Below are positions 10,198 to 24,453 of a DNA stretch of 24,453 nucleotides, piece after piece. Origin of the DNA: Acidobacteria bacterium UBA2994 (GTDB lineage: Bacteria > Acidobacteriota > Vicinamibacteria > Vicinamibacterales > UBA8438); assembly GCA_002346545.1 (NCBI GenBank), contig DEAA01000012.1, forward strand, positions 1 through 24,453. Reading direction: 5' to 3'. The number at the start of each line of letters is the position of its first letter. The stretch's first letter is position 1. The notes under the pieces were generated by a model. That model worked only from the letters and a program-made list of their open reading frames with translations, was not told the origin of the DNA and did not search any database. A program made the translations under genes and the position numbers.

Positions 10198-10270
10198 AGG
10201 GGAATCGTGCTGCGCCGACTCTGAGACAGGTCTAAGGAACGGCTCCCGATAGGCAACTCATATCTGTCTC
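10198..10270 (-). promoter_or_regulatory. Candidate promoter region of the flavin-redox operon
   Basis: Leftward -35 TTGCCT (10251-10256) and -10 TTAGAC (10230-10235) are only 15 nt apart, so this is a weak call. GAGACAG (10223-10229) and CTGTCTC (10264-10270) form a 7-bp inverted repeat around it, a possible binding site for the nearby response regulator or another factor. Confidence 0.28.
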
Positions 10271-10987: not shown

Positions 10988-11229
10988 CGCCCCGTTCTTT
11001 CTCCCGGCGCGGCTATGGAAGGCACATCCCGACGTAGGTCGAGCTCTGCGTGCGCGGAATGCCACTTCGTGAGAGGTCGAGTCATCGGACAAGAGTACGC
11101 CCGCCACAAACGCGCCCTCCGCAGCTCGACCGCTAGCAAGTCCGGTCGCGGCACCAACCGAAGGCCCATGCCAGAACGGGGTTCCGGCTCCCGTTAGCGG
11201 CGACCGCCCCGGCAACCAAGTGATACCGC
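10988..11229. other. Intergenic region between VIT1 and the palindrome
   Basis: There are 342 nt without a gene between VIT1 and the P450 start. Apart from the VIT1 ribosome binding site (GGGAG on the minus strand at 11001-11005), this part shows no ORF with family features, RNA gene or clear promoter. The elements I can defend are the palindrome at 11230 and the promoter at 11294, listed separately. Confidence 0.4.
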
Positions 11230-11251
11230 GCCGGAAACGATCGTTTCCGGC
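11230..11251. promoter_or_regulatory. 22-bp perfect palindrome, candidate operator
   Basis: GCCGGAAACGA followed directly by its exact mirror TCGTTTCCGGC. A gapless 22-bp dyad in a non-coding region is a strong operator candidate for a dimeric TetR- or LacI-type regulator. It lies 42 nt before the predicted -35 of the P450 gene and 243 nt upstream of VIT1. No such regulator is encoded nearby. Confidence 0.6.
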
Positions 11252-11293
11252 ACGGCCGGGTCCGTGCCACCTGCACTGCGGAGGTCAAGTCCC

Positions 11294-11323
11294 TTGCCAC
11301 ATAAACAACTTCGCGAATACCGT
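11294..11323 (+). promoter_or_regulatory. Candidate leaderless promoter of the P450 gene
   Basis: -35 TTGCCA (11294-11299), 18-nt spacer, -10 TACCGT (11318-11323). The chosen ATG follows after 6 nt, so transcription would start at the A of the start codon. The lack of a ribosome binding site before this ATG fits. Confidence 0.4.
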
Positions 11324-11329
11324 CAGAGC

Positions 11330-12550
11330 ATGCCCGAGGATAGGAGATCTGCGCTTCCCGTTCTTCCCATCGATCGAACGCTCGAGTTCCTCGTGCGCGG
11401 GTACGCGTTCGGGCAGCACGGGTTCGATGCGGTGGGACGCGATGCGTTCACGACTCGCCTGATGGGGAAACGTGTGACTTTCGCCCGCGGCAGCGGCTGG
11501 GTGCGCTTCTTCTACGAGGGTGACCGATTTACTCGGGATCGGGCGATGCCTCGCTCGGTGAAGCACTCGTTGCAGGATGAGGGAAGCGTGCAGACCCTCG
11601 CCGGGGATGAGCACCGGAATCGTAAGGCACTTTTCATTGACGTGCTCGATGCGTCAGCTCGCATCGATCTGGATCGCCATGTCGCGGAGGCGTGGCGGAA
11701 GGAATGGGCCGCGGCGTCCGGAAACCGCGTATCTCTGCTGGAGTTGGCTGGGCGCGCTCTGACCGCGGGGGTGTGCACCTGGGCGGGAATTCCGCTCAGC
11801 GACCGCGACCTTGATCGAAGAGCGTCCGAGTTTGCAGGGATGATCGATGGCGCAGGCTCCTTCGGACCACGAAACCTGCGAGGGCGGGCGCTCCGGCTGC
11901 GTACCGAAGCATGGGCGCGACAGGTGCTCCGCGACGCGCCGCCAGAGACCATCGCGGCCAGAGTGGCAGGTCATCGGGACGCAGACGGTCAGTTGCTCGA
12001 CGAGCGTACTGCAGCCGTGGAATTCCTGAACCTGCTTCGACCCACCGTTGCGATTGCGCGCTTCATCGTGTTCGCGGCTCTCGCGTTGCATCTTCATCCC
12101 GAATGGCGTTCGCGTGTCGCCGAGCACGAGGAGACCCGTCTCGCCTTCGCCCAGGAAGTGCGCCGCACTACGCCGTTTTTCCCCGTGGTCGGCGGGACCG
12201 CCGCGCGCGATATGGAATGGGACGGTGTCCGTTTTACGCGCGGTGATTGGGTGATCCTTGATCTTTTCGCCACCAATCGTGATCCTCAGCTCTGGACAGA
12301 TCCGTGCACCTTTGCTCCCGCCCGATTCATGTCGAGTGAGCCGCACCACAACGCGCTTGTGCCGCAAGGCGGTGGTTTTTACGAGGACGGCCACCGCTGC
12401 CCGGGCGAGCCGGCGACGGTGGACCTCCTCGCTTCCGCTGTGGGACGGCTGGCCACTGCGGAGTACACAGTCCCGCGCCAGGACTTTCGAGTCGACCTGC
12501 GGCGATTCCCGGCGCAACCCGAGGACGGGTTTGTGCTCATTCCCGCCTAA
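11330..12550 (+). CDS. CYP152-family cytochrome P450 (fatty-acid peroxygenase), 406 aa
   Basis: H2O2-driven P450 acting on long-chain fatty acids. CYP152 hallmarks: the Arg-Pro pair in NLLRPTVA (Arg237-Pro238), which replaces the usual acid-alcohol pair and binds the substrate carboxylate; EVRR (276-279) followed by TTPFFP; and the haem loop GGGFYEDGHRCPGE with Cys357. The residue matching His85 of OleT and Gln85 of BSbeta is Gln88 (GSVQTLAGDEHRNRK), which favours hydroxylation over decarboxylation to alkenes. The ATG at 11330 gives a normal CYP152 N-terminus (DRTLEFLVRGYAF); a GTG at 11264 would add 22 unusual residues. It is convergent with cadD. Confidence 0.92.
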   Translation: MPEDRRSALPVLPIDRTLEFLVRGYAFGQHGFDAVGRDAFTTRLMGKRVTFARGSGWVRFFYEGDRFTRDRAMPRSVKHSLQDEGSVQTLAGDEHRNRKALFIDVLDASARIDLDRHVAEAWRKEWAAASGNRVSLLELAGRALTAGVCTWAGIPLSDRDLDRRASEFAGMIDGAGSFGPRNLRGRALRLRTEAWARQVLRDAPPETIAARVAGHRDADGQLLDERTAAVEFLNLLRPTVAIARFIVFAALALHLHPEWRSRVAEHEETRLAFAQEVRRTTPFFPVVGGTAARDMEWDGVRFTRGDWVILDLFATNRDPQLWTDPCTFAPARFMSSEPHHNALVPQGGGFYEDGHRCPGEPATVDLLASAVGRLATAEYTVPRQDFRVDLRRFPAQPEDGFVLIPA

Positions 12551-12614: not shown

Positions 12615-13220
12615 TCAGAGCCCGAATGCCCCGCCACTGATCAGGATGAAGAGACCGAGGCCGATCAGAACGATCGGGAACAGGATGTGCTCCCAGCGCT
12701 CCAGGATTTCCGCGATCGAACGTCGGGTAGCGATGAACTTGGCGATGTACACCAGGACCGCGACGAGCGCGAGGAACACAACACAGTAGGCGACCACGGC
12801 GGCGGGTCCGACACTCAGGAAGACCGGCACGTAGACCCCGATGTTGTCCCCGCCGTTTGCGAAGGTGACCCCGGCTACAGCCCAGACGGCGACCTTTTTG
12901 CCTTCGATCTTGCCCTCATCGTCATCGTCGTCGTCGCGACGTCGACGCCATGCCTGCCAGGCCGCCCATAGCCCCAACGCCAAGGGGATCAGGCCGAAGT
13001 AGGGGATGACCTCTGGAGGCAGGAATGCTCCGGCGACGAGAGCTACGAGTACGGCTGCGCCGAGAATGCCGGCGAATCCCAGATACTGCCCGACCAGGAT
13101 TCGAGCGGTCGTGCCCCGTTGTCCCGCGCCGCGGGCGAAGAACAGCGACAGCACGATGATGTCGTCGATGTTCGTGGCAAGGAACAGGCCGATCGCTTGC
13201 AGGATGGAGAGGAAGATCAT
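12615..13220 (-). CDS. cadD: CadD-type cadmium resistance transporter, 201 aa
   Basis: Membrane protein of the cadmium resistance transporter family (LysE-like fold, about five or six helices). Signatures: ATNIDDIIVLSLFFAR (residues 15-30) and FANGGDNIGVYVPVF (120-134), a pair of Asn-Asp motifs likely to line the metal path. The cytoplasmic loop is RRRR followed by six Asp and EGKIEGKK (92-109), an unusually charged segment that may bind metal. The start ATG overlaps the cmtR stop by 4 nt, so the sensor and transporter are cotranscribed. An upstream ATG extension would read into cmtR and is rejected. Confidence 0.9.
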   Translation of the reverse strand: MIFLSILQAIGLFLATNIDDIIVLSLFFARGAGQRGTTARILVGQYLGFAGILGAAVLVALVAGAFLPPEVIPYFGLIPLALGLWAAWQAWRRRRDDDDDDEGKIEGKKVAVWAVAGVTFANGGDNIGVYVPVFLSVGPAAVVAYCVVFLALVAVLVYIAKFIATRRSIAEILERWEHILFPIVLIGLGLFILISGGAFGL

Positions 13221-13576
13221 GCGGTCGCCTCCGTCGTGCAGCATTCCGGGACCGCGCAGGAGGGATCGATGCACCCGGCTGCATGGTCAACGGCCAAGGT
13301 CGTGTCCAGCAGCGCAGTAAGCGCCCGGCTCAGACGGGGGTCGGCGACCTCGTACCGGGTTCGGCGGCCCTCGGGCTCGGCGACGACGATGCCGCAGTCA
13401 CGGAGGCAGGTCAGGTGGTTGGACACGTTGGACGGGCTGAGGTCCAGCTCGCGGGCGAGTGCCGCAGGATAGATCGGGCCGTCAAGCAGGGTCATGAGAA
13501 TGCGTGAGCGTGTGGGGTCGGCCATGGCTCGGCCGAGTCGGTTCATCACGTCCAGACGATCAGTTATAGTCAGCAC
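13217..13576 (-). CDS. cmtR: CmtR-like ArsR/SmtB-family Cd/Pb sensor (copy 1), 119 aa
   Basis: Winged-helix repressor released by soft metals. With the GTG at 13576 as start, cysteines fall at 57, 61 and 102, the same numbers as the Cd/Pb ligands of Mycobacterium tuberculosis CmtR (SNVSNHLTCLRDCG, then GC at 102). This numbering supports GTG 13576 over the GTG at 13591. Cys107, 112 and 113 follow in a Cys-rich tail (SCAVPECC) that may add ligands. It overlaps cadD and is divergent from the VKOR gene, with a dyad-rich operator between. The mRNA is predicted to be leaderless (-10 TATGTT 6 nt upstream). Confidence 0.93.
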   Translation of the reverse strand: MLTITDRLDVMNRLGRAMADPTRSRILMTLLDGPIYPAALARELDLSPSNVSNHLTCLRDCGIVVAEPEGRRTRYEVADPRLSRALTALLDTTLAVDHAAGCIDPSCAVPECCTTEATA

Positions 13577-13606
13577 ACGATGAACATACACGGTTCACTG
13601 TATGAT
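13571..13606. promoter_or_regulatory. CmtR operator and divergent promoters (copy 1)
   Basis: Rightward -10 TATGAT (13601-13606) for the VKOR gene; leftward -10 TATGTT (complement of 13583-13588) with -35 TTAGCG (complement of 13607-13612) and an 18-nt spacer for cmtR. Dyads: CATACA (13585-13590) with TGTATG (13599-13604), and TGAAC (13581-13585) with GTTCA (13593-13597). The TGAA...TTCA pattern recalls ArsR/SmtB operators. The 36 nt match copy 2 (21811-21846) at 25 positions. Confidence 0.6.
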
Positions 13607-13644
13607 CGCTAACCGTCCCGTACAGATCTCGCGATGGGTGAAAG

Positions 13645-14235
13645 TTGTCACAGTTCGTGCGCCGTGAATTCTTCTTCGGCTTGTTCCTCATGCTGTCTGG
13701 CGCCATCGGGTTGACGGCAGCGATGGCATTGTCCGTCGAGAAGATCGAAAAGCTGACCAACCCCGATACGGGCCTCAGCTGCGACTTCTCCGTGTTGGTG
13801 CAATGCTCCGCGAACCTCGACAGCGCTCAGGGAGCCGCATTCGGGGTTCCCAATCCGTTCCTCGGGTTGGTCGGGTTCGCGCTCGTGTTGTGTGTCGGAG
13901 TCGCACTGTGGGCGGTACCTCACTTCGCGCGCTGGTTCTGGGTACTGTTCAATTTCGGTGTCGCCGGAGCTTTTGGGTTCGTGGTCTGGTTGATTGGGCA
14001 GAGCATCTATGTGCTCGGCACGCTCTGCCCCTGGTGTCTGGTTGTGTGGCTGACAACGATCCCGCTGTTCTTCTTCGGGACAGTCCGGAACCTGCGTGAG
14101 GGCGTCTTTGGTCGCAGGGCAAGACGAGTCGGTGCGTTGTTGTGGCCGTGGATGACGCTCGTGACGGTCGCCGCATACCTAGTGGTCGCCGTGCTCGCTC
14201 AGCTCCGCCTGAATGTCCTGGCGAGCATCATTTAG
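13645..14235 (+). CDS. Vitamin K epoxide reductase (VKOR) family protein, 196 aa
   Basis: Membrane quinone-linked enzyme that re-oxidises DsbA-type proteins in actinobacteria. About five helices. The loop cysteines Cys46 and Cys54 (LSCDFSVLVQCS) shuttle electrons to the catalytic CPWC (Cys128-Cys131). GVPNPFLGLVGFA (67-79) carries the family's conserved Pro/Gly. The start is probably TTG at 13645, after GGGTGAAAG, with a stop in frame just upstream at 13639; GTG at 13657 is an alternative. Its natural partner in this window is the DsbA-like protein at 17487-18143. It is transcribed away from cmtR copy 1 and so probably under CmtR control (inference). Confidence 0.92.
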   Translation: MSQFVRREFFFGLFLMLSGAIGLTAAMALSVEKIEKLTNPDTGLSCDFSVLVQCSANLDSAQGAAFGVPNPFLGLVGFALVLCVGVALWAVPHFARWFWVLFNFGVAGAFGFVVWLIGQSIYVLGTLCPWCLVVWLTTIPLFFFGTVRNLREGVFGRRARRVGALLWPWMTLVTVAAYLVVAVLAQLRLNVLASII

Positions 14236-14261
14236 CCCGAGGGACCCATATTCGGCAGAAG

Positions 14262-14780
14262 CTACTTCTCGCGAGTGGAGGTCGTCGTCGGTTTGGAGCG
14301 CAACTGGGATCGGTGGCTGCGGAGCATCTGGAGGATACCGAGGCCGACGCCGATTCCGATGAAGATGTCGGCGAGGTTTCCAATGAAGAGGTTGCCATAG
14401 GCGAGGAAGTCGGTGACGTGGCCGTGACCGAATCCGGGAGGGGCGAATAGGCGGTCGATGAGGTTGCCGACCGCTCCACCCCAGACGAATCCGATCGCGA
14501 TCGCCCACGCCATGGACGTCGCCCGCCAGGCGGCATAGAACAGCACGATCGCTGCCGCGATTCCGATCACGGTGAACACCCATGTGCTGTTTGATCCGAG
14601 AGACATGATCGTGCCGGGGTTGAATGCCAGTTGCAGGCCCAGCAGGTCGCCGATCAGCGGAATGCGTTGTTCCTCGCTCAGCTGCCCGAGCGCCATGGCC
14701 TTCGTGCCCTGGTCTACGAGAGCCATGGTGAGCGCGACCAGGCACGCGACGGCTAGCCTCCGGCTCCGACTGCGCATCAT
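14262..14780 (-). CDS. lspA: Lipoprotein signal peptidase, 172 aa
   Basis: Inner-membrane aspartyl protease that cuts prolipoproteins before the lipidated Cys. Four helices. The catalytic pair is Asp109 in GGAVGNLIDRLF and Asp138 in LFIGNLADIFI (most LspA have FN before xADI; here it is GN). Asp23 (VDQGTK) and Asn54 (FNPGT) are also conserved. The start is the tandem ATG at 14780. It is last in the leftward envelope operon, 142 nt after ccsB, and convergent with the VKOR gene (26-nt gap). A second, housekeeping lspA is expected elsewhere on the chromosome (inference). Confidence 0.93.
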   Translation of the reverse strand: MMRSRSRRLAVACLVALTMALVDQGTKAMALGQLSEEQRIPLIGDLLGLQLAFNPGTIMSLGSNSTWVFTVIGIAAAIVLFYAAWRATSMAWAIAIGFVWGGAVGNLIDRLFAPPGFGHGHVTDFLAYGNLFIGNLADIFIGIGVGLGILQMLRSHRSQLRSKPTTTSTREK

Positions 14781-14922
14781 TGTGCGCCTCGGCCCACGGA
14801 GGGGAGACTTTGGCAATGCCGCCAGGTGCAGTCCATTTGCACAGACGGCCATGGGGAGATATTGCGAAGCTCCGAAACGAGCAACGGTGTGGGCATGCGG
14901 TAATCCTGTCAAGTGGTAGAGG

Positions 14923-15936
14923 TCAGGTGAGGCCGGAGTAGGCGTGCAGGCCTTTGAAGAACATGTTGACGATGGTGAAGTTGAACAGGACGGCGGTGAA
15001 GCCGATAATCGACAGCCATGCGGATCGAGTTCCCCGCCAGCCACGGGTTGCGCGGGCGTGGATGTAGCCGGCGTAAAGAACCCAGATCACGAAGGTCCAG
15101 ACTTCCTTAGTGTCGAATCCCCAGTAGCGGCCCCAGGAGTCGTTGGCCCAGATTGATCCGGCGATCAGGGTGAAGGTCCAGAAGATGAACCCGACGATCG
15201 CGAACCGGTACGCCAGAGACTCCAGTGCCTCCGCGGTGGGAAGCGTGCGCAGATACCCCAGGCCGGACCGCTTCGCGTCCTCACCACCCTTTCCTGACGC
15301 CCGTCGTTCTCGTCGGGCTTGCAGGAGTTGCGTGGCGGAGAGACCGCAGGAGATCGCGAACAGGGCCGTGCCGAGCGAGGCTACGAAGACGTGGATGATG
15401 AGCCACACGCTTTTGAGCGGGTCCATCAGCGGGGTGACTTCGACGTAGAACGCAAGGGTCGCACCACCGAGGAGCAACGCGACCATACCGATGAGAAACG
15501 AGCCCAGGAATCGTAGGTCGTACCGGCGGAGCACGGCCAGGTAGACCGCAACGATCAGCAATGTCCCGGTGAGTGCGAACTCGTACATGTTCGCCCACGG
15601 GACCCTTCCCGCATCGAGTCCTCGCCCGATGGTGCCGGCGAGGTGAAACACGAACGCGAACCCGGTCAGGACGGTGCCGATTCGCGCCCAGAGCAGACGT
15701 TGCCGCTGGCCCGGCCGGGTGCGGACCTCGTTCAGCGCGGCGCGTTCGTCGCCTGTGTTCTGCGTGTCTCCGCCCGCGGTCACGAGCGCGGGCACCCGCT
15801 GGGGTTCGTCGCGGCGTACTGAGCGTTGTGCAAGGTCGATGGCGTAGGCCACGAACGCGAGCAGGTACACGGCGATCGCGGTCCACACCAGCAGCAGGGA
15901 GATGCTGTCCAGGGTCAGGGATTCGGGGTCAGGCAT
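14923..15936 (-). CDS. ccsB: Cytochrome c biogenesis protein CcsB/ResC, 337 aa
   Basis: Haem-handling subunit of the System II cytochrome c synthetase. Tryptophan-rich WWD domain: SIWANDSWGRYWGFDTKEVW (261-280). Conserved histidines: His98 (FHLAG), His182 (IIHVF), His293 (YIHARA) and His331 (KGLHAYSGL). PWANMYEF (113-120) is also typical. About eight helices, with a hydrophilic loop at ~38-80. The ATG at 15936 overlaps the lnt stop by 8 nt. It works with ResB (18140-19861), here separated from it by dsbA and lnt, an unusual order. Confidence 0.95.
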   Translation of the reverse strand: MPDPESLTLDSISLLLVWTAIAVYLLAFVAYAIDLAQRSVRRDEPQRVPALVTAGGDTQNTGDERAALNEVRTRPGQRQRLLWARIGTVLTGFAFVFHLAGTIGRGLDAGRVPWANMYEFALTGTLLIVAVYLAVLRRYDLRFLGSFLIGMVALLLGGATLAFYVEVTPLMDPLKSVWLIIHVFVASLGTALFAISCGLSATQLLQARRERRASGKGGEDAKRSGLGYLRTLPTAEALESLAYRFAIVGFIFWTFTLIAGSIWANDSWGRYWGFDTKEVWTFVIWVLYAGYIHARATRGWRGTRSAWLSIIGFTAVLFNFTIVNMFFKGLHAYSGLT

Positions 15937-17515
15937 CGGTTGCTCCTCGTGCAGATCGGTGGCGGTGGCGGTGGCGGCTGATTCCGGCGATGGTGAGACC
16001 GGTGATCGCGCCGAGGGCGATCAGGGCGGTGAGGGCACCGCCGAGCACGACGGCGGGGGTGAGACCGTCTCGCAGCGGCACGCGGGTGATCGCCGCGGCT
16101 GCCTGGTCGACGCCGGCGCCTTCGATGATCTGCCCGTCCGGGGCGATGACTTGGCTGGTGCCGACGGTGGAGACGTTCACCACGGCACGTCCGGTCTCGA
16201 TCGCACGCATCCGAGCGAACGCGAGCTGTTGAAGATTCTCGTCGGTGCCGCGGAAATCGGCGTTGTTGGTCTGAAACACGTAGACCTGAGCGCCCTGGCG
16301 GGCGCCGTCCCAAATGACGGAGTCGTAGATGACGTCGAAGCAGATCGCCAGTCCGACTTTCACCCCGTCGACGGTCACGAACGGGGGGTTCTGCCCGGGG
16401 GTGTATTCGCGTTGGATCAGGCCGATGAGGTCGGGCGCGATCCGCTCGTAGAACCACCGGTCCGGGACGTACTCCCCGAACGGGACGGGGTTGACCTTGT
16501 CATGCAACTGCGGGGTGCCTTGCCCGTCCCACAGTATCGAGGTGTTGAACACGTCACCGTCACGTGCGGTGGCGGCGTTGGTCAGCAGCGGTGCGCCGGC
16601 CCGGGCGACGAGATCAGTGAGCCGCCGGGCGGTGGCCGGGTCGGTAAGGGGGTCGCTGTCGACGGCACCCTCGGGCCACACCAGCAGATCCATGTCCTCC
16701 CCCAGCAGAGGGTCGGTCGCGGCCGTCTGCGCGGCCAGCACATCCCCGGAGGTGCGGTCATCGAAGTACCCGGAGGGTCCGTTGCCCTGCACCCAGCCGA
16801 TGTCCATCCGGCCGGCGTCCCCGGTAGGGAACTGCGGCACGAGCACCAGGGCGGTCACGATCATCGCTGCAGGCAGGACGCCGCGCATGCGTCGGAACCC
16901 TCCAGCCCGCCACCACTGCACGAGGCACGCGCAGGCGGCGACGATGAGGAAGCCCAGACCGGTCACCCCGACCCAGGACGCCGCCTCCGGGAGCGGGCCG
17001 TTCGCCTGGGTCATCCCGATCCGCGCCCACGGGAACCCGGAGTAAGGCCAGGACCCCATCACCAGCTCCCGCACGCTCCACAGCCCCGCCACCAGCAGCG
17101 GCACCCCGACGAACCACACGACGGCGTGTCCGCGGGCGCGGTCGGTCCACCGGTACGCGAGGGCGATGGGGATCGCCCCGACCCCGAACAGCACCGTTTC
17201 CAGACCGGCCAACGCCACCCACGGGACGGGCCCGAGATACGTGCCCACCCACACCAGGTGGGTGAAGAAGAACGCCGCACCGAAGGCAACACCGACCAGG
17301 AACGCGCCGCCGATGCTGCGGCCGATCATCGTGCACAACGCGAGGGTGATGCTCACAAACGCGAGCGGCCACCACCCTACAGCGGGGAAGGACAGGTCCA
17401 GGAGCCCACCAGCAGCCGCGGCGACGAGGAGCGCCGCCCAGAGCGGTATCTTCCGGCGCGCGGCGGGAGATGCCGCCGCCGCCGCGTCAGTCAGCGAGGG
17501 CGCGGTCGAGAGCAT
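15929..17515 (-). CDS. lnt: Apolipoprotein N-acyltransferase, 528 aa
   Basis: Adds the third acyl chain to lipoproteins. Several N-terminal helices (residues ~25-225), then an external nitrilase-like domain with the triad Glu282 (LVWPEGAV), Lys340 (HDKVNPVPFGEYVP) and Cys392 (GLAICFD), and a last helix near 490-515. The C-terminus is a His/Arg-rich tail (HRHRHRSARG). Length is normal. The start lies inside the dsbA-like gene (29-nt overlap). Pairing with lspA suggests that lipoprotein maturation is part of the module; the TlpA-like lipoprotein of the same operon is an obvious client. No lgt is present. Confidence 0.94.
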   Translation of the reverse strand: MLSTAPSLTDAAAAASPAARRKIPLWAALLVAAAAGGLLDLSFPAVGWWPLAFVSITLALCTMIGRSIGGAFLVGVAFGAAFFFTHLVWVGTYLGPVPWVALAGLETVLFGVGAIPIALAYRWTDRARGHAVVWFVGVPLLVAGLWSVRELVMGSWPYSGFPWARIGMTQANGPLPEAASWVGVTGLGFLIVAACACLVQWWRAGGFRRMRGVLPAAMIVTALVLVPQFPTGDAGRMDIGWVQGNGPSGYFDDRTSGDVLAAQTAATDPLLGEDMDLLVWPEGAVDSDPLTDPATARRLTDLVARAGAPLLTNAATARDGDVFNTSILWDGQGTPQLHDKVNPVPFGEYVPDRWFYERIAPDLIGLIQREYTPGQNPPFVTVDGVKVGLAICFDVIYDSVIWDGARQGAQVYVFQTNNADFRGTDENLQQLAFARMRAIETGRAVVNVSTVGTSQVIAPDGQIIEGAGVDQAAAAITRVPLRDGLTPAVVLGGALTALIALGAITGLTIAGISRHRHRHRSARGATDA

Positions 17516-18143
17516 CGGTGAGATCCGTCAGCTGGGTGAGCTCGAGCTTTTCGCCGTCGAGGAAGAACGTGGGCGTGCCCTGCACACCCATCTGCTGCCC
17601 TTCGGCGAAGTCTTCCTCGACCCGCTCCCGGGTGGCGGGGTCTTCCACCGCCTGGTCGTAGGCGGCCATGTCCAGGCCAAGGTCCTCGGCGAAGCCGCGG
17701 AACAGGTCAGCTTCGGAGACTTGCTGCTCGCCCCACTCGGCCTGCGTCTCGAACATGCGGTGGTACATGTCCTCGACCCGGTCCTGCTGGGCGGCCGCTT
17801 CCACCGCGAGGGCGGCGTTCATCGAGTTGTAGTGGCTGGGGATCGGGTAGTACCGGAACACATAGTTGATCTGTCCGTCGTACTGCTCACGAATCTCCTC
17901 GACGTACGGGTATAACGCCCCACATGCCTCGCATTCGAAGTCGAGGAACTCCACCAGGGTCGGCGCGTTCGGCCCGGCGCTATCAAGGACGTGGGAGTTG
18001 CTGCGGGCACCCGGTAACGCGTCCGCGGCGTTGTCGCCTGCGGGCGCTTGAGGGCGGGTGGAGATCGTGTAGATGATCGCGACGATGACGAGCGCGACCA
18101 CGGCGGCGATCGCGATGAGGGTCACTTTCATGGGGGTCTTCAT
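17487..18143 (-). CDS. DsbA-like membrane-anchored thiol-disulfide oxidoreductase, 218 aa
   Basis: Thioredoxin-fold oxidase with a helical insert (DsbA/Thioredoxin_4 type). Signal anchor at ~5-27, active site CEAC (Cys71-Cys74) after LVEFLDFE, and cis-proline Pro191 in GVQGTPTFFLDG. It is exported and membrane-tethered. It could donate disulfides to envelope proteins and be re-oxidised by the VKOR protein at 13645. The start ATG overlaps the resB stop by 4 nt; Met5 (18131) is an alternative start. It lies inside the cytochrome maturation operon. Confidence 0.92.
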   Translation of the reverse strand: MKTPMKVTLIAIAAVVALVIVAIIYTISTRPQAPAGDNAADALPGARSNSHVLDSAGPNAPTLVEFLDFECEACGALYPYVEEIREQYDGQINYVFRYYPIPSHYNSMNAALAVEAAAQQDRVEDMYHRMFETQAEWGEQQVSEADLFRGFAEDLGLDMAAYDQAVEDPATRERVEEDFAEGQQMGVQGTPTFFLDGEKLELTQLTDLTDALDRALAD

Positions 18144-19861
18144 CGTGAATTCCTTTGGCTGGGTGTCTGTGAGCTCGGGCGATCACGGGCGGCGAGGTGG
18201 GTGTCGCGGATGCCGGCGATCGCGTCGGGCAGTTGCGGATCCTCCCCGCGCGCGAGACCGGCGTATTCCAGGCGCAGGGTGGGCTCGTCCGGGTCGCCGG
18301 TGACGGATGCTTTGACGAACACGCGGCGTCGGGGAACGAGAAGGCCGGTGATCAGACCCAGCGTGGCGAGGGTGGCGAAGGCGAGCACCCAAGGACCGCC
18401 GGTGTCGCGTTTGATGTCCAGCGACGCGAACCGTTTCACCGCCGCCAGGGGATTCGTGCCGCCGGACGCGTCCTCGAAGGTGACCGTGCCCCACCCATTG
18501 GGCAGGTCGGCGGTCTGCCCAGGAGTGAGCTGGATCGACTCGGCACCGCTCGTGCCGCCGGTGAGTTGGGTCATTCCGCTGGTGTCGAGGGTGTACACCG
18601 ACCGGGGCACGCCGTTGTCGATGCCGAGGCTGCCGGAGAACACGTTGAACGTGACGACCGGGTTCACCACGTCGGGATACACCGAGGTGAACGCCCCGGT
18701 GTCAAGAGCGCCCTGGGTGGGATAGAAGAAACCAACAAGCCCGACCTGTTCGGGAAGCCCGTCCGGGACCTTGATGATGCCAAGCGAGGTCATCATGCTG
18801 TCTTGCGGGAGGAACGGCTGCGACTCGCTGTACACGACCGTGCCCTCGGAGTTTCGGACGGTGATGGTGGGTGCGTAGCCGTTGCCGAGCAGATAGACCC
18901 GGTCGCTGCCGACCGTAATGGGGTAGTTCACGCGCACGCTCTCGGTGTCCTCAGTCCCCGTGCGGGCGTCGCGGATGGTGAGGTTCGCGGCGAAGTCGCC
19001 CGCTTGGCCGCCACCGGGTTCTCCCGGTGGCACGTAGCTGACGTCGAAGCTGTCGAGGGTCAGCGAGTACGGGTCCAGCTGCGTTCCATCCACGAACCTG
19101 CCCGGAGTGAACGAGGAGTAGTCGTTGAGGGTGTTGACGAACGTGGTCCCCTCGACGATGACCCGCTGCCCGGTATAGGAGAAGCCGCTGGCGGCGAGCA
19201 CGGCGACCAACACCCCGACCAGGGAGGCATGAAAAACCAGGTTGCCGGTCTCCCGGAGGTACCCTCGCTCGGCCGACACCGACCAAGACCGTGCGGTGTC
19301 GTACCGCTCGATGCGGTATCCGCGGCGGCGCAGATCGGCGGCGGCGGAGGCGATCGTGGCCGCCGCGTCCGCGGCGGGGTCCTCGGCCTTTGTCGGGACG
19401 TCTGCGACAAGGTGGGCGCTCAGCCGGCTGAGACGTGCCGGGGTGCGTGGTGGGCGGGTGCGGAGGGCTTTCCAGTGGTGACGGGTGCGGGGAATGATGC
19501 ACCCGATCAACGAGATGAACAGCAGCAGGTAGATGCCGGAGAACCAGGCAGAGTTGTATAAGTCGAACACCTGCAGCCCGTCGAGGATCGGAGCCAGGTC
19601 GGGGTTGGTTCGGAAGTATTGGAGGACCCCGTTGGGGTCCGCGGTGCGTTGCGGGAAGATCGACCCGGGAACTGAAGCGATGGCCAGCAGGAGCAGCAGC
19701 AGAATCGCGGTGCGCATACTGGTCAGCTGCCGCCACCCCCACCGCAGCCACTCGACCGGCCCCAGCGTCGGGGAGGCAATGGCGTCCGGCTCGTCCTGAT
19801 CGATGTGATCGGCGGGTCGGGACGGGTCGGTGGGGAGCGGGTCAGAGAGGGAGCGTGACAC
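18140..19861 (-). CDS. resB: Cytochrome c biogenesis protein ResB/Ccs1, 573 aa
   Basis: Large membrane subunit of the System II synthetase. Helices at ~50-66 (TAILLLLLLAIASVPG), ~108-124 and ~208-226; a large external domain (~227-490); and a final helix at ~495-515 (PWVLAFATLATLGLITGLLV). The conserved NLVFHASL contains the expected haem-related His211. Opening motifs SIFPQRTADPN and FDLYNSAWF are typical of actinobacterial ResB. The start is GTG at 19861, overlapping the ccdA stop by 20 nt. Together with CcsB, CcdA and the TlpA-like protein it completes System II. Confidence 0.94.
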   Translation of the reverse strand: MSRSLSDPLPTDPSRPADHIDQDEPDAIASPTLGPVEWLRWGWRQLTSMRTAILLLLLLAIASVPGSIFPQRTADPNGVLQYFRTNPDLAPILDGLQVFDLYNSAWFSGIYLLLFISLIGCIIPRTRHHWKALRTRPPRTPARLSRLSAHLVADVPTKAEDPAADAAATIASAAADLRRRGYRIERYDTARSWSVSAERGYLRETGNLVFHASLVGVLVAVLAASGFSYTGQRVIVEGTTFVNTLNDYSSFTPGRFVDGTQLDPYSLTLDSFDVSYVPPGEPGGGQAGDFAANLTIRDARTGTEDTESVRVNYPITVGSDRVYLLGNGYAPTITVRNSEGTVVYSESQPFLPQDSMMTSLGIIKVPDGLPEQVGLVGFFYPTQGALDTGAFTSVYPDVVNPVVTFNVFSGSLGIDNGVPRSVYTLDTSGMTQLTGGTSGAESIQLTPGQTADLPNGWGTVTFEDASGGTNPLAAVKRFASLDIKRDTGGPWVLAFATLATLGLITGLLVPRRRVFVKASVTGDPDEPTLRLEYAGLARGEDPQLPDAIAGIRDTHLAARDRPSSQTPSQRNSR

Positions 19862-20594
19862 TGAGCATCACCCCCTGCAGAACGGACATCAACGCGCCCC
19901 AGATGCCCGTGACCATCAGCACGCCCAGGGCAATCAGCAGGCTGCCGCCGATGATGTTGACCACCCGGATGTGGCGTCGGAGGAAGGTGACTGACCGGGT
20001 GGCCCAGCCCAGTCCGAGCGCGAGCAGGAAGAACGGGATGCCCAGGCCGAGGGAGTAGGCCAAGCCGAGCAGGGCTGCCCGGCCGGGATCGCCGAGATTC
20101 CAGGACACCGACATGATGGCCGCCAGTGTTGGTCCGATGCAGGGAGTCCAGCCGATCCCGAGCGCGATGCCCAGCAGCGGTGCGCTGAACAAGCCCACGT
20201 TGCCACGGAAACGGGGTCGGAGGGTGCGTTGCGCGCGCGGGAACGCGCCGATGAACGCCAGGCCCATGATGATGACAACCACACCGAGCACCCGGGTGAG
20301 GATGTTCGCGTATTCGAGGAAGAACAGCCCCGCCACCCCACCGAGCACCGTGACGGTCATGAACACCAAAGTGAACCCGGCAACGAACAACGCCACCCCG
20401 CCGAGCAGCCGTCCACGGGCAGTGGCGGGGTGGCCTTGTGTCGAGGAGGTGGAGAGGGAGGACCCGAGGTAGCCGAAGTATCCGGGGACAAGCGGGAGCA
20501 CGCACGGGGAGACGAAGGAGATCAGGCCCGCGAGCATGGCGATGAGCACGGCCACCCACAGTGCGCCGTCGAAGATGAACCCTTCGGCGCTCAT
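19842..20594 (-). CDS. ccdA: CcdA-type thiol-disulfide electron transfer membrane protein, 250 aa
   Basis: Carries electrons from cytoplasmic thioredoxin across the membrane to extracytoplasmic thioredoxin-like proteins. Six helices; the redox Cys pair is Cys31 (SFVSPCVLPLVPGY) and Cys152 (GWTPCIGPTL), the standard CcdA arrangement. Its ATG overlaps the tlpA-like stop by 4 nt (ATGA). The reductive pathway CcdA to TlpA-like protein keeps the haem-binding cysteines of apocytochromes reduced in System II. The co-existing oxidative DsbA/VKOR branch makes the operon a two-way thiol system. Confidence 0.95.
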   Translation of the reverse strand: MSAEGFIFDGALWVAVLIAMLAGLISFVSPCVLPLVPGYFGYLGSSLSTSSTQGHPATARGRLLGGVALFVAGFTLVFMTVTVLGGVAGLFFLEYANILTRVLGVVVIIMGLAFIGAFPRAQRTLRPRFRGNVGLFSAPLLGIALGIGWTPCIGPTLAAIMSVSWNLGDPGRAALLGLAYSLGLGIPFFLLALGLGWATRSVTFLRRHIRVVNIIGGSLLIALGVLMVTGIWGALMSVLQGVMLSVTLPL

Positions 20595-21250
20595 TCGCTC
20601 TCCGCCAGCGCGTCCGCGACGAGGGTGGACAGGATCGACGCGGCCGGCAGCTGCCCGATGATCCGGGCGGCGACCCTCCCCTGCCTGTCCATCACCAGAG
20701 TCGTCGGGGTCGCCTGGATGGGAGTGACCGCAGCGAAGGCGAGCTTGGTCTTCCCGTCAACGATGTCGATCACGCTCGGGTAGGTGATCCCGTAGTCCTC
20801 CGCGAACGACAGCGCGGTGGCGGGCTGGTCGTAGATGTTCACCCCGATAAACCCCACCCCTTCGGGCTGATAGGTCTGCCACACCTCTTCCAGTAGCGGC
20901 GCCTCGACCCGGCACGGGCCACACGCGGCATACCAGAAGTTCACGACGTACACCTCGCCAGCAAAGTCGTCGCTGCTCACCGGGTTGCCGCGCTCGTCGA
21001 CGCCGGCGAACACCACCGTCTCGCCACGCTCATCCGGGGCGATCTCGACGATGCGCTCGTCGACGCTGGTGGAACCGGTGCCGTTGTTCGCCGTGGCGGC
21101 CAGCCCGTCCTGGGATGTGCATCCTGCGATCGTGAGCACAGCGGCGGCGGCGAGCATCGCGGCGGCCGCACGGAACGCGCGCCAGGATCTCCGATGGGCA
21201 ACCGGGGGGACGGCGCGGGTGACGGAGGTCACCCGAAACGGGTTTGCCAC
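20591..21250 (-). CDS. TlpA/ResA-like thioredoxin lipoprotein, 219 aa
   Basis: Extracytoplasmic thiol reductase. The N-terminal signal ends in lipobox LTIAGC (Cys44), after a basic n-region. The thioredoxin domain has ACGPC (Cys110-Cys113) in VNFWYAACGPCRVEAP, with Ala-Ala where the usual Trp-Cys context has WC, and a cis-proline in IQATPTTLVMD. I chose the GTG at 21250 because GGAG lies 6 nt upstream (21257-21260); the TTG at 21262 has no binding site. Its predicted lipidation links it to LspA and Lnt of the same operon, and CcdA is its likely electron donor. A structured segment (21270-21336) precedes it. Confidence 0.92.
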   Translation of the reverse strand: MANPFRVTSVTRAVPPVAHRRSWRAFRAAAAMLAAAAVLTIAGCTSQDGLAATANNGTGSTSVDERIVEIAPDERGETVVFAGVDERGNPVSSDDFAGEVYVVNFWYAACGPCRVEAPLLEEVWQTYQPEGVGFIGVNIYDQPATALSFAEDYGITYPSVIDIVDGKTKLAFAAVTPIQATPTTLVMDRQGRVAARIIGQLPAASILSTLVADALAESE

Positions 21251-21269
21251 GACGTTCTCCAATACCAGA

Positions 21270-21336
21270 ACTCAACAGGCGTGCGGTCTGGCAGTGCCAG
21301 CGACTGCACGCTCGTACGGGTGCGAGGGAGTTGAGT
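21270..21336 (-). other. Structured intercistronic RNA element before the tlpA-like gene
   Basis: Outer stem ACTCAAC (21270-21276) with GTTGAGT (21330-21336). Inside it, GCGTGC (21279-21284) pairs with GCACGC (21306-21311) and extends to CTGGC (21288-21292) with GCCAG (21296-21300) around a 3-nt loop. A weaker hairpin fits in 312-325 of the same block. The shape is a three-way junction ending 9 nt before the GGAG of the next gene. There is no T-run, so it looks more like a processing, stability or translational control element than a terminator. Confidence 0.45.
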
Positions 21337-21342
21337 CGTGGA

Positions 21343-21762
21343 TCAGGTTCGGGAAACGCCCAGCTGCGTAAGAGAGAGCACCGGACTCCGGGACGGCGGG
21401 ACCGCGATCAACTCACGCACCATCCCCGCGACACGCTCGATGCTGTACGTGCGGGACGGTACCCGCCAGGCCAGGACGACGAACGCCAGCGCACACGCCA
21501 CTCCCATCAGGCACAGGACGGCACCGAGATCTCCGGCCTCACCCGCGTACCCATCTGCTGTCACCGCCGGGACGGCGCCCGGTTCGTCGGTGACGATCAA
21601 CTCCGCGATCGGCGCTGCCTGAAGGCCCTCGGTTTCCGAGTACGTCGTCACCCACGACCCCATCAGGAGCGCCACGACGAGCCCTAGACCTACCAGCAGC
21701 CTCGCCACCGACGAGCCCACGCGCGCAGCGGCAGCGCGGTCAGCCGGGGTGGAGCGGATCAT
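21343..21762 (-). CDS. Hypothetical two-helix membrane protein, 139 aa
   Basis: I recognise no family. Two hydrophobic helices at ~21-40 (RLLVGLGLVVALLMGSWVTT) and ~79-99 (GAVLCLMGVACALAFVVLAW), joined by an acidic ~38-residue segment, probably external, with a cytoplasmic basic tail (ERVAGMVREL). Cys84 and Cys90 lie inside helix 2. The ATG at 21762 is about 42 nt from the predicted start of transcription. As first gene of the envelope-redox operon, divergent from cmtR copy 2, it is likely to be coregulated; it could be an accessory subunit of the module. The in-frame extension upstream overlaps cmtR and is rejected. Confidence 0.7.
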   Translation of the reverse strand: MIRSTPADRAAAARVGSSVARLLVGLGLVVALLMGSWVTTYSETEGLQAAPIAELIVTDEPGAVPAVTADGYAGEAGDLGAVLCLMGVACALAFVVLAWRVPSRTYSIERVAGMVRELIAVPPSRSPVLSLTQLGVSRT

Positions 21763-21810
21763 TGCGGACGGTCCTACGCTCGGGGTGCTCAGGGATCGGG
21801 ATAGTCGACG

Positions 21811-21846
21811 ATCAAACACTACCAGGTGTATATTCAGCGAATGCTG
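21811..21846. promoter_or_regulatory. CmtR operator and divergent promoters (copy 2)
   Basis: Rightward: -35 TCGACG (21805-21810), 18-nt spacer, -10 TATATT (21829-21834), then 6 nt to the cmtR ATG, so leaderless. Leftward: -10 TTTGAT (complement of 21811-21816) for the envelope operon. A small dyad ACAC...GTGT lies between. It aligns with 13571-13606 (complement) at 25 of 36 positions, including GTGTATnTTCAnCG and ATCAnACA. Confidence 0.6.
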
Positions 21847-22212
21847 ACCTTTGCGTCTCGTGTTGATGTGATGAATCGTCTCGGCCGCGCGATGGCCGAT
21901 CCGACCCGCTCCCGGATCCTCCTCGAGCTTCTTGCGGCCCCCGGCTATCCTGCCCGGTTGTCGGAGTCGTTGGGCCTGACCCGGACGAACGTCTCCAACC
22001 ACCTCGCGTGCCTGCGTGGCTGCGGCATTGTGGTCGCGACCCCGAAAGGACGCCAGACCCGATATGAGATCGCGGACCCGCATCTGACCCGCGCAATTTC
22101 GATGCTCGTGGACACTGTGCTGGCCTACGACGATGGCGCACCGTGCACCGACGAGAACTGCGACGTGCCGTTCTGCTGCGACACCACGACCACGACGGGG
22201 GCTGCACCGTGA
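21841..22212 (+). CDS. cmtR: CmtR-like ArsR/SmtB-family Cd/Pb sensor (copy 2), 123 aa
   Basis: Paralogue of the copy at 13217, with identical stretches such as DVMNRLGRAMADPTRSRIL. From the ATG at 21841 the metal ligands are again Cys57 and Cys61 (NVSNHLACLRGCG) and Cys102, with extra tail cysteines at 107, 112 and 113 (NCDVPFCC). The fold is a winged-helix dimer. The GTG at 21826 is rejected because its codons lie in the operator/-10. Its TGA overlaps the GTG of the ATPase gene (GTGA), so the sensor and pump are one operon; M. tuberculosis cmtR is likewise linked to the ATPase gene ctpG. Confidence 0.94.
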   Translation: MLTFASRVDVMNRLGRAMADPTRSRILLELLAAPGYPARLSESLGLTRTNVSNHLACLRGCGIVVATPKGRQTRYEIADPHLTRAISMLVDTVLAYDDGAPCTDENCDVPFCCDTTTTTGAAP

Positions 22213-24341
22213 GCGAGGAATACTTCGGGCCGGACGAGCCTCGCAAGACCAGCACCGTGCGCCGGATCGAACTGGGCCGCCCGCTCACCGCCGGTGACGC
22301 CTGTTGTGGCCCCGAGGGCACCCGCACGACGGTCGACACGCTTACGGCGGCCCGGAGGCATGAAGACGGTGACGCATGCTGCGGACCAGACCCCGCCTCC
22401 CCTGTAGACACGGATGCGGAAGAGATCGAGGTGCGTCCGCCGTGGTGGCGGGACACCGCGCTGCTGCCCTCCGCGATCGCGGGCGTTTTCCTCCTCGTCG
22501 GGTACATCCTCGAATGGACAGGGGTTCCGATCCCTGCCGTGATCCTCCAGGCAATCGCTCTGGTCGCGGGCGCGTACACGTTCGTCCCCGGTGCCATCCG
22601 ACGGCTGCTGCGCGGCCGCCTCGGCGTCGGGCTGCTGATGACGATCGCCGCGGTCGGAGCGGTGCTGCTTGGCCACGTCGGCGAAGCCGCCGCGCTGGCG
22701 TTCCTGTTCTCTCTCGCCGAAGCTCTCGAAGACCGGGCAATGGACCAAGCCAAAGAAGGCCTCCGCGCGCTCCTCTCCCTCATCCCCGACACCGTGCGGG
22801 TCTCCCGCCTGGGCGGCGATGTCACCATCCCCGCAGCCGACGTCCGTGAACTGGACATCCTCGTCGTCGGCGCCGGCGAACGGATCGCCACAGACGGCGT
22901 CGTCGTGGAGGGCCAGTCGAGTCTCGACACTTCAGCGGTCACCGGCGAATCCATTCCATTGGAGGTCGGACCCGCCGACCCGGTCATCGCCGGCTCGGTA
23001 AACGGGTCTGCAACCCTCCGGATCGAGGCCACCGCAGACGGACGCGACAACTCCCTCACTCAGATCGTCGCACTCGTCGAGCAAGCACACGCCCACAAAG
23101 GCGACCGGGCACGCCTCGCTGACCGCATCGCCCGCCCCCTCGTCCCGGCCGTGCTGATCCTCGCAGCCCTCGTTGCGCTGTTCGGTGTCCTCATCGGTGA
23201 CCCGTCTACGTGGATCGAACGAGCCCTTGTTGTCCTAGTCGCCGCATCCCCGTGCGCCCTGGCAATCGCGGTGCCCGTCACGGTCATCAGCGCGATCGGT
23301 GCGGCCTCCAAGTTCGGTGTCGTGATCAAGTCGGGAGAAGCGTTCGAGCAGCTCGGCACGATCCGCGCCGTGGCCCTGGACAAGACCGGCACCCTCACCC
23401 GCAACGAGCCAACCGTCATTGACGTGCAACCCGCCACCGGAACCACCCGCGACGACCTCCTCGCCTGGGCAGCGGCCGTCGAGGCCACCAGCACACACCC
23501 GCTCGCCGCCGCCATCACCGCCGCCGCACCCGGCGCCATCGCGGCGACGAACGTGACCGAAGAGGCGGGCCACGGCATCACCGGCCAGATCAATGGCCGA
23601 ACCATCCGGATCGGCAACACCCGCTGGCTCAACCCCGGCAACCTTCGCATCACCGCCGACACCATGGCCGCCCAGGGCATGACCGTGGTCGTCGTCGAAA
23701 CGGATCGACAGATCGCCGGGCTCATCGGAGTCAGAGACGAGCTGCGTCCGGAATCCGCCGAGACCGTACGGATGCTGCACGATCAGGGCATTGAGACCAT
23801 CATGCTCACAGGCGACAACGACCGAACCGCCCGCGCAATCGCCCAGGAAGCCGGCATCACGGACGTCCGGGCCGAGCAACTGCCCAAGGACAAGGCCGAC
23901 GCGATCGCCGCCCTCGTCGCATCCCGACCGACAGCGATGGTTGGCGACGGCATCAACGACGCCCCCGCCCTCGCCACAGCGACGGTCGGGATCGCGATGG
24001 GCGTGAAGGGCTCCGCCGCGGCGATCGAGTCCGCCGACGTCGCTTTTACCGGCCATGACCTCCGCTTCATTCCCGGGGCGCTCGCTCACGCCAAGCGCGG
24101 CCGGCGGATCATGACCACCAACATCGGCCTGGCCCTAGCGATTATCGTCGTACTTTTTCCCCTCGCCCTGTTCGGCGTGCTCGGCCTCGCCGGCGTCGTA
24201 CTGGTACACGAGATCGCCGAAATCGTCGTTATTCTTAACGGTGTTCGTGCCGCTCGCCGCCCGGGTGTACTTCGGCAAGTCGCCTTCATGCCGGTCCCGC
24301 GATCTGAGCCCCATGCGCCTGTAAATTTCGCGGCCAGATGA
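22209..24341 (+). CDS. P1B-type heavy-metal-translocating ATPase (Cd/Pb/Zn-type), 710 aa
   Basis: ATP-driven metal exporter. The N-terminus has no HMA domain but two short Cys-Cys motifs, DACCGPEG (Cys32-33) and DACCGPDP (Cys57-58), likely to bind metal. Actuator TGES (245-248), ion-site motif SPC (347-349) instead of the CPC of classical CadA, phosphorylation site DKTGT (Asp391), nucleotide-domain STHPLA, MLTGDN and GDGINDAPALA. The last helix has HEIAEIVVILNGVR. SPC with a C-terminal HE...LN pattern resembles the P1B-4 group (Co/Ni/Zn/Cd), so the specificity is not settled; the CmtR partner favours Cd/Pb. The start is GTG at 22209, translationally coupled to cmtR. Confidence 0.92.
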   Translation: MSEEYFGPDEPRKTSTVRRIELGRPLTAGDACCGPEGTRTTVDTLTAARRHEDGDACCGPDPASPVDTDAEEIEVRPPWWRDTALLPSAIAGVFLLVGYILEWTGVPIPAVILQAIALVAGAYTFVPGAIRRLLRGRLGVGLLMTIAAVGAVLLGHVGEAAALAFLFSLAEALEDRAMDQAKEGLRALLSLIPDTVRVSRLGGDVTIPAADVRELDILVVGAGERIATDGVVVEGQSSLDTSAVTGESIPLEVGPADPVIAGSVNGSATLRIEATADGRDNSLTQIVALVEQAHAHKGDRARLADRIARPLVPAVLILAALVALFGVLIGDPSTWIERALVVLVAASPCALAIAVPVTVISAIGAASKFGVVIKSGEAFEQLGTIRAVALDKTGTLTRNEPTVIDVQPATGTTRDDLLAWAAAVEATSTHPLAAAITAAAPGAIAATNVTEEAGHGITGQINGRTIRIGNTRWLNPGNLRITADTMAAQGMTVVVVETDRQIAGLIGVRDELRPESAETVRMLHDQGIETIMLTGDNDRTARAIAQEAGITDVRAEQLPKDKADAIAALVASRPTAMVGDGINDAPALATATVGIAMGVKGSAAAIESADVAFTGHDLRFIPGALAHAKRGRRIMTTNIGLALAIIVVLFPLALFGVLGLAGVVLVHEIAEIVVILNGVRAARRPGVLRQVAFMPVPRSEPHAPVNFAAR

Positions 24342-24365
24342 GGCACCCCACTGGGAAGAGAAAAC

Positions 24366-24453
24366 ATGCGAACGAGCGTGGAGTGGATGGAGCGAAACCA
24401 AATCCCGCTCTACCTCGCCGCGCTCGTGTTCGGTGCGGCGGTGGGCCTGCTAG
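24366..24453 (+). CDS. Start of a membrane transporter gene, probably ACR3/bile acid:Na symporter family (partial)
   Basis: The ATG at 24366 follows GGGAAGAG and opens a frame that runs off the window. The visible 29 residues (with MERNQIPLYLAALVFGAAVG) resemble the N-terminus of bile acid:sodium symporter/ACR3-type transporters, which often follow metal ATPases in actinobacterial resistance islands and export arsenite or other ions. It starts 24 nt after the ATPase stop and so is probably in the same operon. The fragment is too short to be sure. Confidence 0.5.
   Translation, partial: MRTSVEWMERNQIPLYLAALVFGAAVGLL

Follow-up and report, generated by a model that had tools for sequence, protein, structure and literature searches.

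The stretch of DNA analyzed here, referred to as the window, is the entire 24,453-base contig DEAA01000012.1 (C81) of assembly GCA_002346545.1, filed as Acidobacteria bacterium UBA2994. It holds a block of genes for envelope thiol-disulfide exchange, cytochrome c maturation, and lipoprotein processing, flanked by two genes for CmtR-type metal sensors. An initial annotation had named these genes and described a leftward cmtR-cadD pair and a rightward cmtR-P1B ATPase pair at the two ends of the block. Searches with Pfam and NCBIfam profiles bear out each of the named families, with CcdA just under the Pfam cut-off, and both CmtR proteins pass the equivalog cut-off, each with a pump gene beside it.

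Gene content of the block

The genes are listed by window coordinates and strand.

12615..13220, -: cadD, CadD-type cadmium transporter (PF03596, 107 bits, cut-off 26.2; TIGR00779, 111.8 bits, cut-off 181.65)
13217..13576, -: cmtR1, CmtR-type ArsR/SmtB repressor (NF047906 CmtR equivalog, 167.5 bits, cut-off 150; CLRDC and C-terminal cysteine motifs)
13645..14235, +: vkor, VKOR family membrane protein for disulfide generation (PF07884, 118 bits; CPWC and loop cysteines visible)
14262..14780, -: lspA, signal peptidase II (PF01252, 92.8 bits; start near 14780)
14923..15936, -: ccsB (CcsA/CcsB), System II heme handling (TIGR03144, 239 bits, cut-off 187.6)
15929..17515, -: lnt, apolipoprotein N-acyltransferase (TIGR00546, 222.8 bits, cut-off 132.9; PF20154 and PF00795)
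17487..18143, -: dsbA-like gene, exported thioredoxin-fold protein with CEAC (PF13462, PF01323)
18140..19861, -: resB (PF05140, 426 bits)
19842..20594, -: ccdA (PF02683, 24.1 bits, under the 27.1 cut-off, and no NCBIfam name; conserved position and two conserved cysteines)
20591..21262, -: tlpA/resA-like lipoprotein gene (PF08534 and PF00578 above cut-offs; lipobox IAGC, and CGPC)
21343..21762, -: smp, small membrane protein, first gene of the operon (read from the sequence; family alignment of 10)
21841..22212, +: cmtR2, CmtR-type repressor (NF047906, 161.2 bits, cut-off 150; best structure match the solved Mycobacterium tuberculosis CmtR, 2jsc, E 5e-35)
22209..24341, +: P1B-type ATPase of the Cd family (TIGR01512, 480.2 bits, cut-off 313.5; start overlaps the cmtR2 stop)
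11264..12550, +: cytochrome P450-like gene inside the conserved unit of about 13 kb (PF00067, 28.3 bits; also in the related loci L003, L004, L005, and L008)

As read from the sequence, the cadD reading frame overlaps the cmtR1 stop. The CLRxC motif of the recognition helix and the C-terminal cysteine motifs are present in both CmtR1 and CmtR2; CmtR2 was aligned with 2jsc, and we take the metal cysteine positions of CmtR to be C57, C61, and C102. The System II parts ResB and CcsB are both present. In an alignment with the CcsA/CcsBA chain 25vk, CcsB retains the WWD-type segment and histidines, and 7s9y was a further match. Lnt residues 13-504, near full length, match the solved Lnt 5vrg at E 4e-31; VKOR and LspA had no solved-structure match at E 0.001. 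The Smp protein had no Pfam or NCBIfam match, and a comparison with one DUF6153 protein was unconvincing. Its family alignment shows one invariant cysteine, a nearly invariant second cysteine six residues on, and a C-terminal SRT.

By annotation hits, the distances between successive genes are 83 bp (smp-tlpA), -1 (tlpA-ccdA), -17 (ccdA-resB), -1 (resB-dsbA), -26 (dsbA-lnt), -5 (lnt-ccsB), and 145 (ccsB-lspA). Because the genes from tlpA to ccsB nearly touch or overlap, this segment looks like one tight operon.

Origin of the contig

The contig is a misbinned piece of actinobacterial DNA, probably from a Microbacterium-like genome. WhiB is an actinobacterial hallmark, and none was found in the assembly or in 20 related genomes (0/21); as a control, the WhiB probe matched Corynebacterium alone among 14 control genomes. 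ResB of the window type had no match at E 1e-5 in any of the 20 related genomes. On these two absences, a contig native to its assembly was ruled out. A 16S search of the assembly returned no match. A 13.2-kb stretch of the window is 99.955% identical to a contig (L003) that is filed under a Planctomycetota metagenome-assembled genome. Because the contig is foreign to its assembly and the housekeeping genes of its own host cannot be read, the question of whether the block is an organism's sole housekeeping set was put to the relatives.

Conservation, extra copies, and a separate ResB lineage

The block of about 13 kb is conserved in L003, L004, and L008 at 89-99.95%, and the inner gene order is found in further loci. 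Beyond L003, the remaining ten loci of the genome scan are labeled Microbacterium (seven), Agromyces, Micrococcales, and Actinomycetales. The synteny with cmtR, which the initial annotation had proposed to look for in actinobacterial genomes, thus recurs in Microbacteriaceae and is not confined to one genome. Nor, judging by the relatives, are the inner genes the only cytochrome maturation set, the case that was to count against that annotation: a second ResB match is present in 10 of the 11 genomes holding close relatives, the exception being the Planctomycetota-labeled record. More broadly, a ResB match is present in 144 of 149 Microbacterium genomes, with at least two in 32 (a few perhaps split genes), and Lnt is encoded in 148 of the 149, by exactly one gene in 107.

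To compare loci, 60 stretches of up to 20 kb were fetched, a nonrandom sample drawn mostly from genomes with at least two ResB copies, plus five single-copy genomes. Together with L003 to L013 and the window, and with the partial contigs L028 and L029 excluded, they gave 72 classed ResB loci; stretches shorter than 18 kb at contig ends make up five of the 32 loci classed as housekeeping and five of the 40 classed as islands. Because loci were labeled housekeeping when dsbA, lnt, and lspA were missing, the lack of these three genes does not count as a separate finding; the independent split is the ResB tree (a quick method, no bootstrap, midpoint rooted), in which the 40 island rows stand apart from the 32 housekeeping rows with an SH-aLRT of 99. 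In the tree, L090 joins the islands and L128 groups with the type B rows described below.

Metal genes lie within 9 kb of 38 of the 40 island loci and of none of the 32 housekeeping loci, and the counts are the same if only P1B, CadD, and CopC-type genes are scored. The genes ctaG, csoR, copA, copZ, copD, czcD, dyp, ycnI, and terC were named by eye and confirmed on one representative each (copA only as a P-type ATPase); the label acr3 denotes an SBF-family transporter whose identity as ACR3 is not established, and omitting it alters no count. The two island exceptions are L128 and L148, the latter overlapping the L008 stretch, which has copC and a pump gene. A cmtR gene (at least 60% identity) lies within 9 kb in 15 of the 40 island rows and anywhere in the fetched stretch in 24 (14 type A, 10 type B), versus none of the 32 housekeeping rows. 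The ResB locus of the window does not look like a housekeeping ccs locus, since it falls in the island clade and has metal genes nearby. The separate island ResB clade, the nearby metal genes, and the second ResB matches together indicate that the inner genes are extra copies in the relatives. The relatives therefore repeat what had been noticed in the window: metal export genes lie together with genes for envelope redox, cytochrome c, and lipoproteins. The best explanation for the block is a horizontally moving metal-resistance cassette of Microbacteriaceae.

The islands take two forms. In type A, as in the window, the order is smp-tlpA-ccdA-resB-dsbA-lnt-ccsB-lspA, with vkor within 9 kb in 8 of the 16 loci so classed. 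In type B, the order is dsbA, a flavin-oxidoreductase-like gene, copC, lspA, tlpA, ccdA, resB, ctaG, and lnt, then ccsB and copD. Pieces of a type B island are also present on contigs C11 and C16 of the assembly that contains the window. The description of the block as enclosed by two CmtR modules holds only for the sub-type of the window; most relatives have one module, on one side.

The placement of that module is informative. The inner operon and cmtR2 point away from each other in the window, where 78 bp lie between them, and also in L003, L004, and L008. In eight type A loci (L006, L007, L009, L010, L011, L012, L092, and L095), cmtR and a pump gene lie upstream of the inner block on the same strand, and in L006, L007, and L009 to L012 successive open reading frames (ORFs), including those without an annotation hit, are separated by no more than about 220 bp. 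This recurring placement next to the inner block is the best genomic argument that the two may be under joint control.

The maturation genes are also under purifying selection. In comparisons of the window with L005, L007, and L008 (Nei-Gojobori method), the ratio of nonsynonymous to synonymous substitution rates (dN/dS) was 0.07-0.28 for the unbroken tlpA, ccdA, resB, dsbA, lnt, ccsB, lspA, and vkor and 0.37-0.45 for smp. Against the much closer L004, values reached 0.39 (dsbA) and 0.53 (smp). Rows with stops were left out (cmtR1, p1b, and p450 for L004; lnt and p450 for L008; cmtR1 for L007).

Predicted CmtR operators

The promoter of the inner operon carries a CmtR operator-like sequence. 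The cmtR promoters have in common TGTATAGTCAG, three bases, and then RTGCTGACTAT over the start codon, with a GTCA-like element further upstream. The cmtR starts (13576 for cmtR1 and 21841 for cmtR2) are probably leaderless, 6 nt past a -10-like hexamer. The predicted control features of the window are as follows.

21825..21837, +: predicted CmtR operator common to cmtR2 and the smp operon (best matrix match of the window; 15.3 in the smaller matrix)
13561..13573, +, and 13580..13592, -: predicted CmtR operator, two arms, at the cmtR1 start (15.5 and 12.8 in the larger matrix)
13601..13606, +: probable vkor -10 box, TATGAT (TATGAT or TACGAT at the same place in L004, L005, L008, and L089)
21816..21821, -: probable -10 box of the smp operon, TAGTGT (footprint of 8 loci)

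In the window, the top three scores of the first matrix fall at the two cmtR promoters and at the second cmtR1 arm, and the larger matrix ranks these sites highest as well. The cmtR1 operator region (13561..13592) adjoins the 68-bp gap to vkor. A TAnnnT-type box follows the operator in all eight aligned loci, TAGTGT in seven and TAATGT in L008. The smaller matrix, built solely from the cmtR promoters of other loci, gave no hits of at least 15, a cut-off chosen after the scores had been seen, in the 589,800 bases of the 32 housekeeping loci. Separate operators for vkor (13597) and smp (21808) were considered weak and not counted, ranking 9 and 10 with the first matrix; the 13597 element aligns with the upstream half-site of the cmtR promoters. 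A 2009 study by Chauhan reportedly deals, as its title has it, with the interaction of CmtR with multiple operator sites.

Some relatives have kept the operator after losing the repressor gene that diverges from it. An operator match lies 54-61 bp upstream of smp in L089 (22.6), L005 (18.7), and L006 and L007 (16.9 each), four sites that were outside the matrix and that amount to about three independent cases because L006 and L007 are near copies. Of the divergent cmtR2, the coding sequence is missing as far as the operator in L089 and L007, at most a degenerate remnant persists in L006, and the gene is cut by an insertion in L005; the other cmtR gene, cmtR1, is intact in L005, L006, and L089. 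Retention of the operator suggests that the smp operon may use it, in which case the other cmtR gene would provide the repressor. In L005, insertions (7413-8054 and 17005-18102) appear to interrupt cmtR2 and cadD, with the operator before smp retained. Elsewhere, L009 has one further operator match before the block (15.8). Three type B loci (L131, L133, and L135) have a CmtR-operator-like match of 17.4 and no CmtR of 60% identity in the stretch. CmtR control of the inner operon is a prediction from these sites.

Plasmid relatives in other families

ResB relatives are found on 94 plasmid records. A CmtR-like match (51-86% identity) lies within 10 kb of ResB in at least 14 of 40 among the plasmid records listed (40 for ResB; 60 of 86 for CmtR-like proteins), and two of these 14 records are equal in length and may be one plasmid. 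Fifteen plasmid stretches were inspected. Seven were hand-picked from the ranking, and the other eight came from a list of 16 records taken at even intervals, two more of which were already included. By the PLSDB gene tables, which are incomplete, ten of the 15 contain metal genes (P1B pumps, CadD or ArsR/SmtB genes, or CopC), as do 6 of the 10 in the evenly spaced subset. The weakest such case is Streptomyces FR1, with a multicopper oxidase and a cupredoxin. Genes for Lnt, LspA, or Lgt are present in 11 of the 15. Comparable gene sets in other orders, with ResB 34-46% identical, are carried by plasmids of Arthrobacter FB24, Streptomyces CdTB01, Gordonia (pG135), and Rhodococcus (pBD2), spanning Micrococcaceae, Streptomycetaceae, Nocardiaceae, and Gordoniaceae. 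The Arthrobacter FB24 cluster also has a P450 gene.

Possible functions of the envelope genes

The explanation that we lean toward, and consider somewhat probable, is that the block encodes a metal-derepressed spare line for envelope maturation that substitutes for metal-sensitive housekeeping enzymes and is carried on a mobile cassette of Microbacteriaceae. Acting at shared, short intergenic operator regions, CmtR would repress not only the pump genes (P1B ATPase and CadD) but also smp-tlpA-ccdA-resB-dsbA-lnt-ccsB-lspA and vkor. Cd(II) or Pb(II) would release CmtR, so that pumps and envelope enzymes would be produced together. System II attaches heme to cysteines held reduced by CcdA and TlpA; in a spare System II line, TlpA and CcdA would reduce the heme-binding cysteines and ResB and CcsB would deliver the heme. 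DsbA and VKOR would serve as a spare disulfide pair, and LspA and Lnt as spare lipoprotein finishing enzymes that could also mature the TlpA lipoprotein. Such a line would maintain the assembly of respiratory cytochromes and exported proteins while soft metals disable the housekeeping enzymes or apo-proteins. DsbA, VKOR, TlpA, and CcdA are thiol dependent, and Lnt has an active-site cysteine. Among ORFs of at least 60 amino acids, the type A loci yielded no CXXCH protein, so any cytochrome client would be a protein of the host. In Rubrivivax, Cd is reported to lower respiratory complexes and, like Cu, to target heme synthesis (PMC7283390).

The initial annotation had suggested repair of the cell-surface thiol and lipoprotein machinery. 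The gene content favors a spare set over repair: the enzymes encoded are complete biosynthetic ones, none was recognized as a repair enzyme, and no gene lends support to repair in the strict sense. A different idea, that the island proteins are metal hardened through loss of cysteines, was ruled out: they are not cysteine-poor, and CcsB is the reverse.

A number of observations weigh against metal-induced replacement. On the side of function, CcsB has one or two cysteines in the island proteins (23 distinct) and none in the housekeeping proteins (0/28). LspA is an aspartic protease and not a thiol enzyme, so thiol attack alone cannot account for the whole gene set. The gene for Lnt is split in L008 and deleted in L006 and would thus be dispensable at times. 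On the side of regulation, both arms of the cmtR1-vkor operator score below 15 in the smaller matrix, which makes the vkor-side operator the weaker prediction, and the cut-off itself was set with the scores in view. Two of the four retained operators come from near copies, and in one of these, L007, the cmtR1 frame is broken near its start. The same-strand loci L010 to L012 have no second operator before the block, so the inner block there would depend on read-through. In L092 and L095, tlpA is set off from the pump cluster by gaps of 600-800 bp that lack an annotation hit, and cmtR is less frequent in the stretches of type B islands (10 of 23). Five of the 15 plasmid stretches have no clear metal-resistance gene: Rhodococcus pyridinivorans P23, Clavibacter pCT3, Pseudarthrobacter pA, Rhodococcus WAY2 (cobalt-type CbtA/B only), and Tsukamurella. 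Those of Clavibacter and Tsukamurella look like housekeeping heme loci. Finally, the published metal targets, HemN and periplasmic assembly, are from a Gram-negative organism.

Four other explanations were weighed. The block might be a dedicated maturation line for one client or a small number of clients borne on the island; candidates are the TlpA lipoprotein, Smp, a cuproenzyme, and metal-binding lipoproteins, CopC-like or other. The lipobox of TlpA fits this idea, as do the CopC, CtaG, and M23 peptidase genes that type B islands add and the multicopper oxidase or DUF305 genes on some plasmids. However, type A islands have no other obvious client, and 39 of the 40 island loci have no CXXCH protein: the scan returned 11 motif-bearing ORFs, all but that of L128 mostly overlapped by another gene, and the L128 hit is probably unrelated, leaving no local cytochrome client for ResB and CcsB. 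We regard a dedicated line as unlikely, though worth keeping in mind. Lower in probability is a role in thiol and heme homeostasis, by which CcdA, TlpA, DsbA, and VKOR would shift the redox state of metal-binding surface thiols, ResB and CcsB would export heme, and the block itself would detoxify. Four thiol-disulfide genes in one cassette and the metal genes adjoining 38 of the 40 islands would be expected from such a role, but it leaves Lnt, LspA, and Lgt, which recur on the plasmids, unexplained.

Slightly more doubtful still is that the envelope genes are cargo that travels on resistance elements and adds nothing to tolerance. Islands do collect many unrelated genes, and the broken or missing lnt of L008 and L006 would be unsurprising in cargo, but the low dN/dS, the tight packing, the retained operator, and the comparable sets in different orders in several families are not what cargo would lead one to expect. 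Ordinary housekeeping cytochrome c genes beside which cmtR modules inserted by chance are very improbable: ResB, CcdA, TlpA, and CcsB are normal actinobacterial genes, but in relatives the housekeeping genes form a distinct set that falls in a clade of its own, and dsbA, lnt, lspA, and metal genes are missing from its surroundings.

Comparison with known systems

The spare line favored here shares features with several described systems. The M. tuberculosis cmtR-pacL2-ctpG operon likewise has a CmtR-type sensor and a P1B pump, with the regulator governing its own operon; in contrast to the window, it is described, in the text available, as having only the small PacL and the pump, without envelope-maturation genes, and CtpG has an APC motif where the pump here has SPC (PMC13043812). 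The pbr lead operon of Cupriavidus metallidurans (pbrA, pbrB/C) also links lipoprotein maturation to metal resistance, so a signal peptidase alongside a lead pump is already known; it differs in its MerR-type control and in the fusion of the peptidase to a phosphatase, and the available part of the report mentions no cytochrome c, Dsb, or Lnt genes (PMC3431237). In metal genomic islands of Brevibacterium (cmtR, lspA, resA, czcD), the gene tables place cmtR by lspA, ctpG, or resA, but the accessible portion of that source is an annotation listing that describes neither a resB-ccsB-lnt block nor its regulation (PMC12467314). A Microbacterium paper, in its available text, names ResB and CcdA among metal-resistance annotations (PMC12554309). 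All four components of System II (ResB, CcsB/CcsA, CcdA, and TlpA/ResA) are present here, CcdA by position and a sub-threshold Pfam match; compared with the usual system, the one here is, in the relatives, an extra copy in a metal island, with dsbA and lnt interposed and a CmtR-like operator in front. Neither the module nor its conservation or operator is described in the open-licence literature searched, as far as its text was available. CmtR with a P1B pump is already known; the module with an envelope-maturation block is, as far as searched, new.

Other features of the window

A perfect 20-bp palindrome, CCGGAAACGATCGTTTCCGG, at 11231-11250 lies just upstream of the P450-like gene, near the edge of the conserved unit, and looks like the operator of another regulator. 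No exact inverted repeats of at least 11 bases were found between 11100-11300 and 24150-24453. Further left, 1418-3531 holds a divergent merR and a gene for a mercuric-reductase-like flavoprotein without an HMA domain match, with a glutaredoxin-like gene nearby at 660-923. At 5765-11215, genes for a two-component pair, ApbE, an FMN-binding protein, a ferric-reductase-like protein, and a VIT1 family protein are clustered in what looks like a flavin/iron redox module.

Implications

Current annotation of metal resistance counts pumps and sensors. If a CmtR-controlled spare line belongs to resistance, it would indicate an envelope target of Cd and Pb in Gram-positive bacteria, and it could explain why genes for signal peptidase II and Lnt are found next to metal pumps. 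Retention of the operator despite loss of the divergent repressor leads to a sharp prediction about regulation. A more tentative generalization, which we hold to be possible rather than probable, is resistance by target replacement as a class: mobile elements of actinobacteria would carry metal-induced spare copies of the entire cysteine- and heme-dependent line that matures exported proteins (System II, Dsb/VKOR, and Lgt/LspA/Lnt), assembled repeatedly in different orders in several families, because that line would be the principal envelope target of soft metals. These findings suggest that metal resistance may include sustaining the assembly of surface proteins in addition to the export of metal.

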